DNA of 64,000 nt, taken from the NCBI RefSeq assembly GCF_003597395.2, contig NC_133771.1, positions 124,047,783 to 124,111,782 on the forward strand. The letters are read 5' to 3'. A program made the position numbers and the translations under genes. Source of the DNA: Chelonoidis abingdonii (taxonomy: Eukaryota; Chordata; Testudines; Testudinidae). This document shows, in pieces, positions 23,817 to 51,500 of this stretch (positions are counted from its first letter, which is position 1; each line of letters starts with the position of its first letter). The notes under the pieces were generated by a model, which saw nothing but the letters and a program-made list of their open reading frames with translations, had not been told where the DNA came from and did no database searches.

Positions 23817-25894
23817 GGCCTGGTCTACACTACGCATTTAAACCGAATTTAGCAGCGTTAAACCAAATTAACCCTGCACCCATCCACACAACGAAGCCCT
23901 TTATATCGATATAAAGGGCTCTTAAAACCGATTTCTGTACTCCTCCCCGGTGAGGGGAATAGCGCTGAAATTGGTATTGCCATGTCAGATTAGGGTTAGT
24001 GTGGCCGCAATTTGACGGTATTGGCCTCCGAGCGGTATCCCACAGTGCACCATTGTGACCGCTCTGGAAAGCAATCTGAACTTGGATGCAGTGGCAAGTG
24101 ACAGGAAAAGCCTGTGACTTATTTGAAATTTCATTTCCTGTTTTGCAGCGTGGCAAGTCTAGGTCAGACGGGGGGGTTGCATCGCCCAACAACAAAGAGA
24201 CTCCAGCATAGGACCGTAGAATACTGGAGGATCTGATCGCTGTCTGGGGAGACAAATCTGTTTATCAAGAAGCTCCTTACAGAACGAAAGGCCAAGGCAA
24301 TTTTGAAAAAATTCCAGACTATGATACAGAGTTCCACAGCAAGGACTCAGCCAGTGCTGGCGTGGCACAGCATAACGGAAGCCAAAGAATCAAATTGGAT
24401 GCTCACGGAGGGAGGGGCGGTACCTGAGACTCCAGCCATCCCAGTGGCCGCAGTCCTTCCGAAAATCATTTTGCATTTGGCTGAGCTCCCAATGACTTAG
24501 GGTCAAACACATATCGGTATGGTTCAGGTCTGTCCGCATTATTACCACCCTCCCTCCATGATAGAAAGGGGAAAAATTCGGTCTTCGACTTTTGGTCACC
24601 CTAGTTTATACTGCATCTGCGCGGTAAGACACGGTGCTTGCAGCAGTAAACAGTACATCCTCTCTCTCCCTCCCGAGGTAGAATCAGTACATCAGTAGGG
24701 CACTGATAGCCGTCACTGGTCATAAGAGCCCCGTGATGGTGGCTCGGCCTGGACCTCAGGGGCCGGCCAGGGGCGCCTGGGGAAAAATGAGGATGATTTC
24801 CCGGTTCATTCGTAGTGGTATAAAGAAACGGTGAAACCGTCCCTCATCATAGCACTGGGGGACTGAGCTCCATCAGCCCTTCCCTTCCGAAATGAAAAGA
24901 CGATTACTGCCATGAATTATAAGATAGCAGTGAGGCTGAAAAGCTCTCCTCTCCCTCATTTATCTCGGTAACAAGTGCCGGTTGTTTTCTTTCCTGCTTC
25001 TTATTATTCATGAACAATGGTGGGGACCGCCACGGAGCTTCGTAGGAAGGTCGGGGAGGAGGGAAGCGATGGTGGGGTGATGGCAGGGCACCCCCTAGAA
25101 TGGATAGCAGCTCTTACATTTCTTGCTAGAAATTGACATGGGCAGCTGTGCTACTCTCGATTACAAACTGTGTTCTTCTATTGCATTCCCCCCAATATGC
25201 TAGGCAGGATTGACTGCCTCTATTTAGATACCACATAAAGAGGGAATTGACTCCCCGGTTATTTCCTATTTGTTTTGCTTCCTGGGCCGCCAGACCTCAG
25301 CCAGGGGCCCATGACAGCAGCAGGGACATGTACAAGACGACAGATAAACCGTCATCTTCATTGCCAATTTACAATGGCGCAGCGAACGGTACACGAAGCC
25401 TGATAACTGTCTCGCTGTCATGAAAAGATATAAATGAATTGCGCTGTGTTAGCAACTTGCAACTCGTCTGTACGGCATCCGTACACTACGTTGGACAGTT
25501 TAAAAAAAAAGGGAAAGGTAAACGGGGTTGTTTGGTTGCCTGCTATGGCGGTCCTGCAGGGTAATCCAGTGAAAAAGGACGCAAAATATGTCTGCCGTTG
25601 CTTCACGGAGGAAGAGGATGAGGCGAGATATTACCAAAGCATCACCCACGGGACAAGATTGGCCCCCATCAGCACTGGGATCTCAAGCCCAGATTCCATG
25701 GGGAGGGAGACTGCAAGGACAACTATGGAGAACAACGGGATAGCTACCCAAGGCAACGCCGGCAAATTGATACTAGCCCGGTACGACCACACTTGCCAAT
25801 TATGTGCTAGTGTGGCTCGTCACTCGACCTATTAACATCTGGTTACAAAATCTGGGTTTATGTGAAATTGGAAATTCCGTAGTTCGAACATATC
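23817..25894 (+). mobile_element. Harbinger-like element A, Myb gene remnant only (2.1 kb)
   Basis: The left end GGCCTGGTCTACACTACG and the right end CCGTAGTTCGAACATATC are inverted termini. Subterminally there is a 26-bp perfect palindrome (23895-23920) centred on ATCGAT. Around 24200-24370 a frame-broken stretch resembles the Myb/SANT-like gene of turtle Harbinger elements (words such as GATCTGATCGCTGTCTGGGGA). No DDE transposase region was seen, so it would depend on a partner. Many frameshifts show that it is old. The 396-bp element at 26762-27157 is a deletion derivative of the same family. Confidence 0.75.
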
Positions 25895-26761: not shown

Positions 26762-27157
26762 GGCTGGTCTCCATTGCATTTCAACCGTTAGCAACGTTAA
26801 ACCGATTTAACGCTGTACCCGTCCACACAACAAGGCCCTTTATATCGATATAAAGGGCTCTTTAAATCGGTTTCTGTACTCCTCTCCAATGAGAGGAGTA
26901 GCGCTAAAATCGGTATTACCATATTGGATTAGGGTTAGTGTGGCCGCAAAATGACGGTATTGGCCTCCGGGCGGTATCCCACAGTGCTCCACTGTGACCG
27001 CTCTGGACAGCAATCTGAACTTGGATGCAGTGGCCAGGTAAACAGGAAAAGCCCTAATTAATGTTCTTAGTGTGGCTGCGTGCACTCGACTTTATACAAT
27101 CTATTTTACAAAACCGGTTTTTGTAAAATTGGAATAATCCCGTAGTGTAGACATACC
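26762..27157. mobile_element. MITE derived from Harbinger-like element A (396 bp)
   Basis: The first 290 bp follow element A (23817 onward) and the last 100 bp follow its right end, with the whole Myb-gene interior missing. Ends are GGCTGGTCTCCATTGC and CCCGTAGTGTAGACATACC. The subterminal palindrome is kept as 24 perfect bp (26835-26858). A clear parent-to-MITE deletion relationship within one window. Confidence 0.8.
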
Positions 27158-39575: not shown

Positions 39576-39989
39576 ACATAACTTGTCTACATGAACACTT
39601 AAGCCTTGGCTACACTGGAGAGTTGCAATGCTGGTAGTGGCTTTACAGCGCTGCAACTCACTTACCATCCACACTTGCAAGGCACATACAGCGCTGTATC
39701 TCCCTGGCTACAGCGCTGGCTGTACTCCACCTTGACCTGGGGAATAATGACTATAGCGCTGGTGATGCAGGGCTGCTCCGCTAGTGTGGCCACCAAAAGC
39801 ACTGTTATTGGCTCCAGAGGTATTCCGAGGTATCCCAGAATGCCTGTTCAGCCACTCTACTCATCAGTTCGAACTCTACTGCCCTGACCTTAGGTGACCC
39901 GCCCTTCAAATGCCCCGGGAATTTTAAAAATCCCCTTCCTGTTTGCTCAGCCAGTGTGGAGTGCAATCAGTGAATCTTTCCAGGTGACC

Positions 39990-41547
39990 ATGCCTCCACA
40001 CGCCAAACGAGCCACAGCATGGAGCAATGGCGAGTTGCTGGACCTCATCAGTGTTTGGGGGGAGGAAGCTGTGCAGTCCCAGCTGCGCTCCAGCTCTAGG
40101 AATTATGATACCTATGGGCAGAGATCAAGGACCATACTGGAAAGGGGCCATGACCGGGATGCCCTGCAGTGCAGGGTTAAAGTGAAGGAGCTCCGGAGTG
40201 CCTATTGCAAAGCCCACGAGGGAAACCGCCGCTTCGGTGCTGCCCCCACGACCTGCCATTTTTACAAAGAGCTGGACGCGATACTTGGGGGTGACCTCAC
40301 CACCAATCCGGCCTGCCACGATGGACACTTCAGAGCGGGGGGGGGAGGAGGAAGGGCAGAAGGAAACTGAGAGTGAGGGTACTGGGGTCCCTGGAGGCAT
40401 GCAGCCAGGAGCTCTTCTCAAGCCAGGGGGAAGGTAGCCAGTCGCAGCAGCCGTACTTGGTGGAGGACAAACAGAGGAGCGGGTTCCCGGTAAGCGGCCT
40501 TTATTTTCAGGGTGGAAATTTTTCGGGAGAAGAGGGAGGGTTAGGGCTGCATGCATGCGTGCCTAGATATTGAATAGCGCATTGAGGTGGTCTATCACGT
40601 CACGGTAATTGGCCTCGGTAATCTCTTCAAAAGTTTCAGCCAGAGCGTGGGCAGTGCGCTTGTGCAAGTTTATAGGGAGAGCCACTGTAGTCCTTATCCC
40701 AGTCAGGCTAACATGTCTGCGCCACTGTGCTGTGAGGGGTGGGGGGACCATTGCAAGACACAGGCAAGTTGCATAGGGGCCAGGGCGGAATTCGCATTGC
40801 TGCAGAAGACCCTGCTGCGCTTCCCAGGTGACCCGCAGCAGTGAGAGATCTTCCAGGATCAACTCCTGTGGAAAATGTTGGGATAGTGTTCAGCTTTGGT
40901 GCCCCCTGCAGCTGTTTGCTTTCCCCAACGCACAGAAACCCCGAGGACAGTAGAGCCCTGAAGCAATCAGTCCCCCTTACTCACCATTTCGGTGCTCCCG
41001 TGGGTTATGTGCGCTCTTTTTGGGATGGGAAAATTATGCTGTTGTGAAGAATGTTACTCCTTAACTGTGTGGGAATAACTGTCTGGTATAAACAATGCTG
41101 CTTCTATTAAGTGTTGCATTTTTTGCCTTTTCAGAAGCAACCTTGAGATCTCGGCTGCCCGTGTTATCAACAGCTCGAAGACTACAAAGCCTCCAGAAGA
41201 AGCCACAAAAAAGCAAAGGAGACATGCTGCAAGCAGTTATGGAGCACTCTATCACAGAGAATCAGAAAGTGCAGGACTGGAGGGAAAGGGAAAGCAGGAT
41301 CCACCAGAAAAACGCAGCGGACAGGACAAAAAGCACAAAGAAGCTGATAAGCATCCTGGTGCGCCAAGCGGACTCTATCCAGGCGCTTGTAGCCATGCAG
41401 GCAGAGCACTACCGCCCCTGCCCCCCCCCCGTCCCAAAGCTCTTACCCTTGTGCCCCAATATCAGCTCAAAACCCCCTTCCCCAGCATCCAGGTTCTTAC
41501 CACCACCAGCTGCCTCCAACACCTGTACGTTCACCAACCAGCCCTGA
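39990..41547 (+). pseudogene. Harbinger B Myb/SANT-like DNA-binding gene, frameshifted
   Basis: Probable two-exon gene. Exon 1 starts MPPHAKRATAWSNGELLDLI, with the conserved W of a Myb/SANT-like trihelix, then WGEEAVQSQLRSS, then CRVKVKELRSAY, and runs to a GTAAGC donor at 40490. Exon 2 follows a TTTTGCCTTTTCAG acceptor at 41135 and encodes a basic, helical segment (SILVRQADSIQALVAMQAEH) and a proline-rich C-terminus ending at 41547. The frame is lost near 40337-40346, in a run of about ten G, and downstream homology continues in the next frame. In turtles such proteins are often annotated as zinc finger and SCAN domain-like. The 4-member gene pair faces the transposase. Confidence 0.85.
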
Positions 41548-41903: not shown

Positions 41904-43134
41904 TTACTGTTGGTTTTCAGCCTCAAATTCCTCCCTCAAGGCATCCCTAATCCTTGCAATCCTGTGCTGGGCCTCTCTAGTAGTCTTGCTCTGTGGCTGT
42001 GCAAATTCAGCCTCCAGGCGTTGAACCTCAGAGGTCCATGCCTGACTGAATCTTCCACCCTTCCCTTCACAAATATTATGGAGGGTACAGCACGCGGATA
42101 TAACCGCAGGGATGCTGCTTTCCCCCAAGTCTAGCTTCCCATAACAGAATTGCCAGTGCCCCTTTAAATGACCAAAAGCACACTCCACAGTCATTCGGCA
42201 CCGGCTTAGCCTGTAGTTGAACCGGTCCTTGCTCCTGTCAAGGTTTCCTGTGTACGGTTTCATAAGCCATGCCATTAACGGGTAAGCGGGGTCTCCAAGG
42301 ATCACAATGGGCATTTCGATGTCCCCTACTGTGATCTTCCGGTCTGGGTAAAAAGTCCCGGCCTGCAGCTTCCTGAACAGGCCACTGTTCCGAAAGATGC
42401 GTGCGTCATGCACCTTTCCGGGCCAGCCTGGTTAATGTCAGTGAAATGCCCACGGTGATCCGCAAGCGCCTGGAGAACCATGGAGAAATACTCCTTCTGA
42501 TTAACATACTTGGATGCTGGGTGAGGTGGTGCCAGAATAGGAATATGCATCCCATCTATCTCCCCGCCACAGTTAGGGAAAGCCATTTGTGCAAAGCCAT
42601 CCAGAATGTCCTGCATGTTCCCCAGAGTCACGGTTCTTCTTAGCAGGATGTGATTAATGGCCCTGCAAACTTGCATCAACACAATTCCAACAGTCGATTT
42701 TCCCACTCCAAACTGGTTCCCAACCGATCGGTAGCTGTCTGGCATTGACAGCTTCCAGATTGCAACAGCCACCCGCTTCTCCATCGGCAGGGCAGCTCTC
42801 AATCTCATGTCCTTGCGCCGCAGGGTGGGGGCGAGTTCAGCACACAGTCCCATGAAAGTGGCTTTTCTCTTCCGAAAGTTCTGCAGCCACTGTTCGTCAT
42901 CCCAGACTTCTATGTCGATATGATCCCACCACTCAGTGCTTGTTTCCCAAGCCCAAAAGCGGCATTCCACAGTGCTGAGCATTTCCGTGAATGCCACAAG
43001 CAAGTTCGTGTCATACGCAACTTGCTATCATCGTCAGACTCCTCATCACTTTGGCTCCTAAGGAATAGCTCAACTGCCAAACGTGATGTGCTGGCAAGAC
43101 TCGTCAGCATATTCCTCAGCAGTTCAGGCTCCAT
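41904..43134 (-). pseudogene. Harbinger B DDE transposase, two frameshifts
   Basis: HARBI1-type transposase read from about 43134 (MEPELLRNMLTSL) to a stop at 41904. In order: an acidic N-terminus (SDEESDDDSK), the WWDHID and FRKRKATF region, a helix-turn-helix like stretch (SYRSVGNQFGVGKSTVG), first catalytic D in GGEIDGMHIPI, second D in ILGDPAYPL, third residue E in MTVECAFGHLKG. All three DDE residues survive. The frame changes near 43020 and again near 42415, so the product would be cut off before the second D. About 400 codons in total, close to the usual family length. Its closeness to intact form suggests a fairly young insertion. Confidence 0.88.
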
Positions 43135-48200: not shown

Positions 48201-48214
48201 TACACCTCAGTCAC
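48201..48214 (+). repeat. Target-site duplication, left copy
   Basis: TACACCTCAGTCAC, identical to 50961-50974. Its final TCAC blends into the TCAC-type repeat tail of the LINE. Confidence 0.92.
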
Positions 48215-50960
48215 TCACTCTCACTCACTCATGCCCGTCACCCCAATCGGGGTATGGGCCACCAACCACAGATCTCCAGAGTCCTCTATCCTGGGCCATT
48301 CGCTCTAGCTGGTTCCAGGTATAGCCCATTTTTTTGCTATCAGCCTGAAGGTCGCGTCGCCAGGTGTTTCTTGGACGGCCTCTTTTCCGCTTGCCTTGGG
48401 GGTTCCACCGCAGTGCCTGTCTGGTGATGTTAGTTGGCTGCTTGCGTAGTGTATGTCCTATCCAACCCCACCTTCTCCTTCTGATTTCTTCCTCTGCTGG
48501 GAGTTGACGGGTCCTCTCCAAGAGGTGGATGTTACTGATGGTGTCTGGCCAGCGGATCTGGAGAATCCTTCTGAGGCAGCTATTAATGAAGGTCTGGATC
48601 TTCCTGGTGGTTGTTTTGGTTGTCCTCCAGGTTTCAGCTCCATACAGTAGGACTGATTTCACATTGGAGTTGAACAGTCGAATTTTTATTGCCAAAGACA
48701 GCTCTCTGGAGCTCCAGATGTTCTTGAGCTGTAAGAAGGCTGCTCTTGCCTTACCAATCCTTACTTTGATGTCTGCGTCTGTGCCACCCTGCTGGTCGAT
48801 GATGCTACCTAGGTAGGTGAAGGACTGCACTTCTTCCAAGGGGCTTCCATTCAGTGTGACTGGGTCGTTGCTGATGGAATTAATCCTAAGGATCTTGGTC
48901 TTGTCCTTGTGAATGTTGAGGCCAACCTGTGATGACGTGGCTGCCACAGTGTTGGTCTTCTCTTGCATCTGCTCTTTACTGTGCGAAAGGAGTGCAAGAT
49001 CGTCAGCAAAGTCCAGGTCATCAAGCTGGGTCCACAACGTCCACTGGATTCCATTCCTACGCTCGTAAGTGGATGTCTTCATAATCCAATCGATGACGAG
49101 GAGAAAGAGAAGTGGTGACAACAAGCATCCTTGTCTGACTCCAGTTCGCACCTGGAAGCTGTTAGTGAGCTGCCCTCCATGGATCACTCTACAGTGTATA
49201 CCATCATATGAGTTCTTGATCAGGTTGACCACCTTTGCTGGAATGCCGTAGTGCCGAAGGAGCTTCCAGAGGGTCTCTCGATCCACGCTATCGAACGCTT
49301 TCTCATAGTCAACAAAGTTGATGTACAACGAGGAGTTCCACTCCACAGACTGCTCGACTATGATGCGAAGCGTTGCTATCTGGTCCGTGCATGATCTGTT
49401 CAGCCGGAAACCTGCCTGTTCATCTCGTAGCTGTGGATCGACGGCATCCTTCATTCTCTCTAAGAGAACTCGGTTGAAGACCTTCCCTGGCACCGACAGG
49501 AGTGTGATTCCTCTATAATTGGCACAGTTGCTAAGGTCTCCTTTCTTGGGGATTTTGATGAGATATCCCTCTTTCCAGTCTGCCGGAATCACTTCTTCTT
49601 CCCATATCTTCTCAAAGAGGGGGTACAGCATTTCCACTGAAGCATCCAGGTCTGCTTTCAGGCCCTCTGCTGGGATGTCATCAGGTCCAGCCGCCTTCCT
49701 GTTCTTCATCATGGTGATGGCTTTTCTGATCTCATCTCTGGTTGGTTTATCGCAATTAATTGGGAGGTCTTCGTTGGCTGGGTTAATGTCTGGTGGATTT
49801 GGTGGTGCTGGTCTGTTCAGGAGTTCCTCAAAGTGCTCCGCCCATCTGTTCATCTGTTGTTCTATTCCTGTTATAGACTTTCCCTGCTTGTCTTTAACGG
49901 GACGTTCTGGCTTGCTGAACTTTCCAGACAGTCGCTTGGTAGTATCATACAGTTGTTTCATGTTACCGCTGTATGCTGCCTGCTCCGCTTCTGCTGCCAG
50001 TTCATCCACATACTCTCTCTTGTCCTTCCTAATATTCCTCTTCACTGCTCTGTGGGCTTCAGCATACTCTTTTTGAGCTTTGGCCTTTGCAGCTCTAGTC
50101 CTGCTGTTGTTGACTGCTGCCTTCTTCTTCTTTCTGTCTTCTATCTTGGTCAAGGTCTCTGCTGTGATCCACTCTTTCTGCTGGTGTTTCTTAATTCCAA
50201 GCACTTCCTGGCATACTAACCTAAGTGTCTCTCTCACTTTCTGCCATCTGTTTAGTACACTGTCTTCCTCTTCCTCAGACCGATCCTGTAATACTGAAAA
50301 CTTATTCTTCAGCATCAGTCCAAAATCTTCCTTGGTCTTACGGTCCTTCAGAAGGCTGACGTTGTACTTCACTCTTCTGTCTGATGTATCTATCCAGCTC
50401 TGCTTCAGCTTCAGCTTCAATCTAGCCACCACTAAGTGATGGTCGGACGCCGCGTCTGCTCCTCTTCTAACTCTAACGTCCTGCAAGGATCTTCTGAACT
50501 TCTTGCTAATGCAGACATGGTCGATCTGATTTTCTGTCGTGCCTGCTGGTGATACCCAGGTACTCTTGTGGATCCGCTTGTGAGGAAAGATGCTACCTCC
50601 TATGACCAGGTTGTTAAGTGCACACAGATCCACAAATCTCTCTCCATTCTCACTCATCTCTCCCAGAGCGTGGGTCCCCATGACTTGTTCGTATCCTGTG
50701 TTGTCAGGTCCAATTTTGGCATTAAAGTCTCCCATAAGGATGATGATGTCTTTATCTGGGAGAATCTCTAATATTTTCTGGAGTCTGTTGTAAAAATAAT
50801 CTTTGTCCTCCTCTTCGCTGTCATTAGTTGGAGCGTAGCACTGAACAACATTCATCTTAATCCTCTTCATTTTAGTTCTGAAGGATGCTGTGATGATCCT
50901 GGGACCATGTGCCTCCCAACCAATCAGTGTTATCTGTGCCTGCTTGGACAACATGAAGCC
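48215..50960 (-). mobile_element. 5'-truncated LINE with intact 909-codon frame and 14-bp TSD
   Basis: The element lies on the minus strand between perfect direct repeats TACACCTCAGTCAC at 48201-48214 and 50961-50974. Its 3' end is a short GAGT/GTGA repeat tail (48215-48232) with no poly(A). The 5' end starts inside the endonuclease domain, so the copy is 5'-truncated, as usual for target-primed reverse transcription. The protein is unlike CR1 and L2, the common turtle LINEs, and resembles RTE-like elements widespread in cnidarians, molluscs and fish. The perfect duplication and unbroken frame argue for a recent insertion. Confidence 0.92.
48225..50954 (-). CDS. LINE endonuclease-reverse transcriptase (N-terminally truncated)
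   Basis: 909 codons without a stop. The remaining apurinic-type endonuclease has YAPTND (about 40-45), MGDFNAKIG (74-82), NQIDH (142-146) and the catalytic SDHH (170-173). A basic linker follows (about 250-330). The reverse transcriptase holds [11 protein letters not shown] (about 421), the first catalytic Asp in [12 protein letters not shown] (547-558), [13 protein letters not shown] (605-617) and the FADD box (649-652). A C-terminal part has [14 protein letters not shown] and a basic [15 protein letters not shown] block. All catalytic residues expected in this portion are present. The ATG at 50954 is an internal methionine exposed by truncation, not the native start; the first part of the endonuclease is absent. 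The UGA stop lies in the 3' repeat tail. Family placement (RTE-like) is from memory and uncertain. Confidence 0.9.
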
Positions 50961-51500
50961 TACACCTCAGTCACGGCTAGCATTGATCTCCATCAAGGTG
51001 TACCTAGACATCTGCAGAGCAGCAATGTGATTCTTTGTTCACACATTTGCTAGACTCTCTGCAATTACTTACGCATTAAGGGAAGACCCAAGTGTAAGGA
51101 AAGTGGTCTTACAGACCACCTTCTCATGAGTCCTAGCCCCAGCTCTGTCAAAAACACCTTCAGTGTAATGGATATATGCAATTGCTTGAAGAAAAAATGG
51201 TTAATCACCTTGTAACTGGATGTTGCCTACATCTATTACACATCCCATCCTTCTCCAATGCATCAGTCTGACATCTAGATTCTGGTATGAAGGAATTGAA
51301 GGATGGGCAAGGCAGCTCCACTCCTTATACCTTTGGCTCAGAGCATGAGGGAAGCCAATGCATGTATGTGGCCACCCCTACAAGTATTGCTAGGGAAAAC
51401 TCACTCTGGTACAACTACACAAGATGTGCACACACCTACAATATAATGGACATATGCAACCCATCTTACAAGAGTTTCAAGAAGGCAAGTAACAGTTTTT
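50961..51500 (+). repeat. Decayed DIRS-like retroelement, right part
   Basis: Includes the right copy of the duplication (50961-50974). In one frame it reads LALISIKVYLDICRAAM, then FFVHTFARLS and THALREDPSV-like sequence after stops. The ICRAA..HTF pattern resembles the C-terminal region of tyrosine recombinases of DIRS-type retroelements. Repeated GTAATGGATATATGC and TAATGGACATATGC words near 51165 and 51440, and near 46845, belong to the same old material. The call is tentative. Confidence 0.4.

Follow-up and report, generated by a model that had tools for sequence, protein, structure and literature searches.

A 5′-truncated LINE copy and its surroundings

The window analysed here, a stretch of 64 kb from the Pinta giant tortoise Chelonoidis abingdonii, carries on its minus strand a copy of an RTE-type LINE that has lost its 5′ part and is bounded by an exact target-site duplication (TSD). 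No second copy of the element was found within the 64-kb window. The features of the insertion are the following.

48215..50960, minus strand: 5′-truncated RTE-type LINE, 2,746 bp of about 3.2 kb, with 39 other scored genomic copies at 98.9-99.6%
50961..50974, no strand: TSD copy on the 5′ side of the element; exact repeat, whose three adjoining bases (GTA, sense) are also present in longer copies
48201..48214, no strand: TSD copy on the 3′ side of the element; exact repeat, of which GTGA (sense) also fits the tail
48225..50966, minus strand: open frame, stop to stop, with 909 codons from the first ATG, without about 91 N-terminal residues of a 1002-aa protein
50430..50852, minus strand: C-terminal portion of the endonuclease; residues 38-178 match Pfam Exo_endo_phos_2 below its cut-off, and WN and ETRW are absent
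48801..49553, minus strand: reverse transcriptase domain with FADD (Pfam RVT_1, residues 471-721)
48642..48740, minus strand: DUF6451 domain (Pfam, residues 742-774)
48215..48231, minus strand: 3′ tail, imperfect (TGAG)n in the sequence, running into the TSD and with the stop codon inside it; similar TGAG-type tails, with variants, occur in other copies

The minus-strand frame of 909 codons and the perfect 14-bp duplication on both sides, both described in the initial annotation, were found as reported. The duplication is TACACCTCAGTCAC, and the chance of an exact match of 14 bases at two preset positions is 4^-14. On the sense strand, the first four bases of the duplication (GTGA) prolong the tail repeat, and the last three bases ahead of the 5′ junction (GTA) are the same bases that longer copies have at that place, so that both fit target and element alike and both boundaries are ambiguous by 3-4 bases. 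Such shared bases are common in target-primed insertion. The reverse transcriptase with its FADD motif was likewise recovered in the window protein (RVT_1, E-value 6.1e-35), followed by DUF6451 (2.2e-16), and two endonuclease models of Pfam match below their cut-offs (6.9e-6 and 8e-4). A search of Rfam at gathering thresholds gave no match.

The setting is turtle-like, as had been proposed, the relatives listed for a neighboring Myb ORF (120 of 240) being all from turtles. The window also holds transposon remnants at 39894-40367 (plus strand), 41907-42431 (minus strand) and 42329-43024 (minus strand), comprising a Myb/SANT-like ORF and a DDE_Tnp_4 transposase in two frames, which we take to be of the PIF/Harbinger type. 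A pair of direct repeats of about 295 bp, 86% identical, lies at 23820-24112 and 26764-27053.

A search of the tortoise's own genome (assembly CheloAbing_2.0) gave 580 first-look candidates, of which the 40 best were scored, one being the window copy itself. All 39 others are 98.9-99.6% identical to the window copy over about 2.74 kb, and 35 of them have about 455 bp more at the 5′ side, which brings their ends to no more than about 35 bp from a shared 5′ start, AACTCCACCAGA. The longer copies consist of a leader of about 180 bp and then a single ORF of 1002 aa with WNVR and ETRW ahead of the reverse transcriptase; of the 35, 18 have an ORF of exactly 1002 aa, while in three it is longer and in 14 shorter. 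In 37 of the 40 copies, a script detected identical stretches of 7 bp or more at the two ends, and the 3′ ends of the scored copies have TGAG-type tails with variants.

The endonuclease of the window copy had been described as intact. The 12-residue motif on which that reading was based is present, whereas the intactness did not hold, because about 91 N-terminal residues with WN and ETRW are missing. In the two longer copies inspected, WNVR and ETRW open the 1002-aa ORF, and the window frame begins downstream of both. The WN and the E of ETRW are motifs of the endonuclease, and their loss, together with the 455 bp by which 35 of 39 copies exceed the window copy, rules out an intact enzyme. An autonomous copy would have a complete ORF including both motifs, which the 5′ truncation has removed here. 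Without the N-terminal residues and the two motifs of the endonuclease, the window copy should not move by itself and is probably non-working and not autonomous.

From the anatomy observed at the locus, we infer the steps of the insertion. A longer member of the family, located at another place in the tortoise genome, would have been transcribed, and its EN-RT protein would have nicked the target site; the RNA would then have been reverse-transcribed from the 3′ tail (target-primed reverse transcription), with a halt about 455 nt short of the 5′ end. The outcome would be the 2,746-bp truncated copy between the 14-bp duplications. These steps follow the general behavior of LINEs. A paralogous empty site was not found when the joined flanks were compared with the fetched genomic stretches, the comparison giving one match of 112 bp at 70%.

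The window copy (L001) and another copy with different flanks (L009) are truncated at the identical base of the element and have one listed variant in common. A truncated common source for the two was considered and rejected, since this sole shared listed variant occurs in 9 of the 40 copies.

Young copies, older copies and assembly errors

Recent activity of the family, also claimed in the initial annotation, is borne out by the divergence of copies within the genome, the 40 scored copies (the 39 at 98.9-99.6% and the window copy) showing a mean pairwise difference of 0.56%, with a range of 0.11-1.51%. On average, each copy has 3.4 private changes per 2,715 bp. The window copy has five in 2,715 bp, of which four are non-CpG, and with the substitution rates published for turtles (2.62-7.83e-10 per site per year, PMC12550490) these four correspond to an insertion age of 2-6 My, or 0.5-15 My with counting error, although the 40 copies are the best of 580, picked by similarity, so that the age leans young. 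Variability is several-fold higher in the 5′ leader than in the body, by whose similarity the copies had been picked. Private changes of the 40 copies comprise 60 synonymous, 107 non-synonymous and 11 stop changes, compared with about 51, 120 and 7 expected if neutral. Concerning copy number, a 33-mer of the 3′ end has 139 exact matches in the genome and a second 33-mer has 394 matches at up to three mismatches, the reversed control giving 0 in each case.

The quality of the assembly bears on these figures. Gaps in CheloAbing_2.0 were filled with PacBio reads at 0.5x and with short reads (PMC12032190); short reads may homogenise young copies, and gap filling may blur single bases. Beyond the best 40, 34 loci were examined, among them 12 fetched from the 33-mer match lists (11 of these selected for a non-standard 3′ end) and 20 that form a systematic sample of 100 listed exact 33-mer places, with already-fetched loci skipped. 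Several sampled loci are 90-95% identical by BLAST. However, in eight of the 22 re-checked loci (L044, L045, L048, L054, L060, L063, L070 and L072) we counted 7-34 single-base indels, an indication of faulty gap filling. In five of them (L045, L048, L063, L070 and L072) there are 27-34 such indels per 0.8-1.4 kb, probably from gap-filling error, and copies of this kind in CheloAbing_2.0 are a trap for repeat dating. For example, an earlier estimate gave 4.4% and 7.9% non-CpG divergence for L045 and L048, which would correspond to ages of up to 302 My, whereas pairwise alignment of the same two loci with one young copy gave 2.6% and 3.6%, with 32 and 34 single-base indels. Since these indels point to error-laden gap filling, L045 and L048 were not used for dating.

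Two other loci have no single-base indels. L046 (410 sites, 11 changes) and L064 (441 sites, 16 changes) diverge from a young copy by 2.9% and 4.0% at non-CpG positions, which at the turtle rates corresponds arithmetically to 19-76 My if both branches evolved and to 37-153 My if the old copy's branch alone did so. These clean copies suggest that the family has probably been in the lineage for tens of millions of years, a long residence that rests, in clean sequence, on these two short copies. The family would then probably be an older resident with a young burst.

This bears on the idea that the element came recently from outside. If it had entered the tortoise lineage horizontally within the last few million years, the young burst would be its entire history, and the very small divergence of the scored copies, the lack of another copy in the window and the apparent age of other copies, largely gap-filling error, would be consistent with that. 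Nevertheless, a recently arrived element would have no older copies in its host, and L046 and L064, at 2.9% and 4.0% in sequence free of single-base indels, led us to reject a recent arrival, which we regard as very improbable. The distribution of the group in turtles also argues against it. Chelonoidis, Trachemys and Cuora presumably stand for families separated by 50-70 My. This is the separation published for tortoises, Mauremys and Trachemys (PMC9553416), and Perere-3/Sr3-like elements, the group discussed below, are reported from Chelonoidis, Trachemys and Cuora alike (PMC13155389, Table 2).

Another possibility is that turtles were entered horizontally several times, the older copies being an earlier wave and the young burst a later close relative. 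The older copies differ at several sites from all 40 young ones, and frequent movement from host to host has been argued for the group (PMC13155389). Ten amino-acid sites show a residue that is absent from the young copies and common to two or all three of the older copies L044, L045 and L048. At two of these sites, five or more of the six closest outside relatives have this residue as well, at two more some of them do, and at the remaining six none does. The outside state in the older copies at two sites, and partly at two more, is what ancestors of the young copies would show, and no observation requires a second arrival. Repeated entry is thus unlikely in our judgment, albeit less so than a recent single entry, and an old resident family with a young burst is the reading that we retain.

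Short copies that join the two ends of the element

In the systematic sample of 20 loci, four (L056, L059, L066 and L068) join the exact 5′ start of the element to its 3′ end, and in a fifth (L054) the 5′ leader is joined to the 3′ end, with the leader reaching the edge of the fetched stretch. One locus (L060) has another internal deletion, and in two (L055 and L065) a stretch adjoining the 3′ part is inverted, the arrangement that twin priming would be expected to give. The remaining loci either fill the stretch (6 of 20) or are short truncations of 26-446 bp (6 of 20), one of the latter, L061, having a second 26-bp match nearby. Further joined copies, L049 and L052, were found among the 12 loci of which 11 were selected for a non-standard 3′ end.

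In these bridged copies, the start AACTCCACCAGA is followed directly by the 3′ end, with the loss of about 2.3-2.9 kb in between, and TSDs are visible in L049, L052, L056, L059, L066 and L068. Breakpoints mostly differ between copies, with a microhomology of 0-5 nt at the junctions and, in one case, a 1-nt insertion. In the rotifer element Hebe, internal deletions of 12-200 bp flanked by microhomology have been ascribed to end joining (PMC2861651). Splicing as the origin of the tortoise copies was rejected, since GT-AG borders are absent at all nine junctions examined. The junction of the 421-bp L049 form is found once more, at L053, which has a different 5′ flank, an identity of 97.4% and a 3′ flank of N.

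Tentatively, and with somewhat less than even confidence, we propose that a notable share of the short copies are bridged, the reverse transcriptase having jumped on its template towards the 5′ end of the RNA during insertion. It is possible that the 421-bp form was itself copied in trans, which could mark the onset of evolution towards a SINE-like parasite. Alternatively, bridged copies may be mis-joins of the assembly, an explanation that is live because L054 and L060 lie in indel-rich sequence.

Relatives of the element and the history of the family

LINEs of the RTE clade have a single ORF, with an endonuclease and then a reverse transcriptase and no upstream ORF1, and a very short 3′ end with a repeat tail of short units instead of poly(A). 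The longer tortoise copies present such an ORF with no ORF1 ahead of it, and the 3′ end is very short, with a TGAG-type tail that in the window contains the stop codon; the RTE label itself rests on the published naming of the schistosome relatives, the trees described below containing close relatives only. In these trees, which have no outgroup, the tortoise protein falls together with the Schistosoma proteins; it is 66-69% identical to them and shares DUF6451 with them. We infer that these Schistosoma proteins are of the Sr3/Perere-3 type, and on its protein sequence the window element is assigned to the Perere-3/Sr3-like group of RTE LINEs.

This group has been described by Brann et al. 2026 (PMC13155389), whose Table 2 has an entry for Chelonoidis abingdonii (length 3,199 bp, identity 66.2%, 78 hits above 1,000 bp). 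The turtle LINE-RTEs of that report agree with ours in species, in the presence of EN, RT and DUF6451 and in their length of about 3.2 kb, the element being thus an ordinary member of an already published case; the window copy, its truncation and age, and the older and internally joined copies are not described in the parts of the report drawn on here. Under the 80-80-80 rule, which asks for 80% DNA identity to Sr3 or Perere-3 within one family, an identity of 66.2% for C. abingdonii would make the tortoise element a separate family of the group. The authors argue for wide horizontal transfer, ask for more tests beyond schistosomes and snails, and set Perere-3/Sr3 apart from BovB and AviRTE, the RTE LINEs with documented horizontal transfer (PMC13155389).

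SR3 and Perere-3 of Schistosoma, with 3,207-3,211 bp, TSDs of 10-12 bp and a tetranucleotide tail, resemble the tortoise element in length, TSD size and kind of tail, although the repeat is (TAAG)n in Schistosoma and of the (TGAG)n type in the tortoise (PMC1291365). Another turtle RTE family, RTE-9_CPB (a Repbase name, from painted turtle), is the nearest Repbase match of the sea-snake element RTE-Snek_2 (PMC7846101). CR1 and RTE LINEs are abundant according to the painted turtle genome paper, and Suh et al. reported many RTE families in turtles and crocodiles; therefore, RTEs are not foreign to turtles.

A protein search retrieved 1,093 relatives among 7,980 scored candidates, the best 120 of which were listed. 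Among the matches listed, the nearest to the full protein of a longer copy (L002) is P0001, at 87%, and the resemblance to mollusc and fish elements noted at the outset is upheld in the search and in the trees, with 82% over 1001 aa for the snail Littorina saxatilis (P0003), 79% for Erpetoichthys (reedfish) and 74% for Protopterus (lungfish). No turtle appears among the organism names shown for the 120 listed relatives, most of which are without a name. A scan with the window protein found no relative in collections of genome contigs and viral contigs. Two proteins of the group (P0018 and P0032) are filed under bacterial metagenome bins (Cetobacterium and Kangiellaceae), probably because of animal DNA in the bins.

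The relatives were placed in two trees without an outgroup, a large one (121/122 rows) and a bootstrap tree whose 34 rows were picked after the large one had been viewed. In both, the turtle is grouped with Littorina, lungfish and other rows (97/94 in the bootstrap tree), and reedfish and Garra adjoin this group (100/100). Four changes are required for the five fish rows in either tree, and the Schistosoma rows form a clade of their own in both. When all vertebrate rows of the 34 were forced into one clade, the arrangement was rejected (AU test, p 3.9e-5), whereas a clade of turtle, reedfish, Garra and lungfish was not (p 0.115, 34 rows), so that for the turtle branch the tree alone is no proof of transfer.

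Purely vertical descent, from an ancestor that molluscs and flatworms shared with vertebrates and under strong conservation of the protein, could accommodate this last result, in which the turtle and the three fish of the immediate clade stay together. It conflicts with the rejection of a single clade of all vertebrate rows, and the patchy published distribution (PMC13155389) argues against it as well. Also, Littorina P0003 is nearer to the turtle (82%) than to the other Littorina element, P0031 (68%), although two old paralogous lineages could also account for this. We consider vertical descent the least probable of the histories weighed here. Transfer within the wider group is well supported, and the protein identities of 82% to the snail and 79% to the reedfish, with the discordance between the tree of the relatives and animal phylogeny, make horizontal transfer at some time likely. 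The horizontal origin in the original proposal is thus likely, and a recent arrival is not supported, given the older copies in the same genome and the three turtle genera.

The family would then have come into turtles horizontally, at a time that most likely lies tens of millions of years back, and would have persisted there, with a young burst in this species. We hold with considerable confidence the whole account, in which the window element is a Perere-3/Sr3-like copy truncated during target-primed reverse transcription, within a family of old horizontal entry into turtles, long persistence and a young burst.

The main value of these observations is that they confirm, in a species already on the published list, a LINE group whose occurrence is scattered over several phyla. 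They add dates for the window insertion and for the burst in a giant tortoise, they provide evidence for a family of older residence as opposed to a newcomer, and they correct the picture of the window copy, which is truncated. The bridged copies, if real, would allow direct tests of template jumping and of how non-autonomous RTE derivatives arise. Finally, 37 Galapagos tortoises have been resequenced (PMC12032190), and with these data young insertions like the window copy could act as presence/absence markers in the island radiation.
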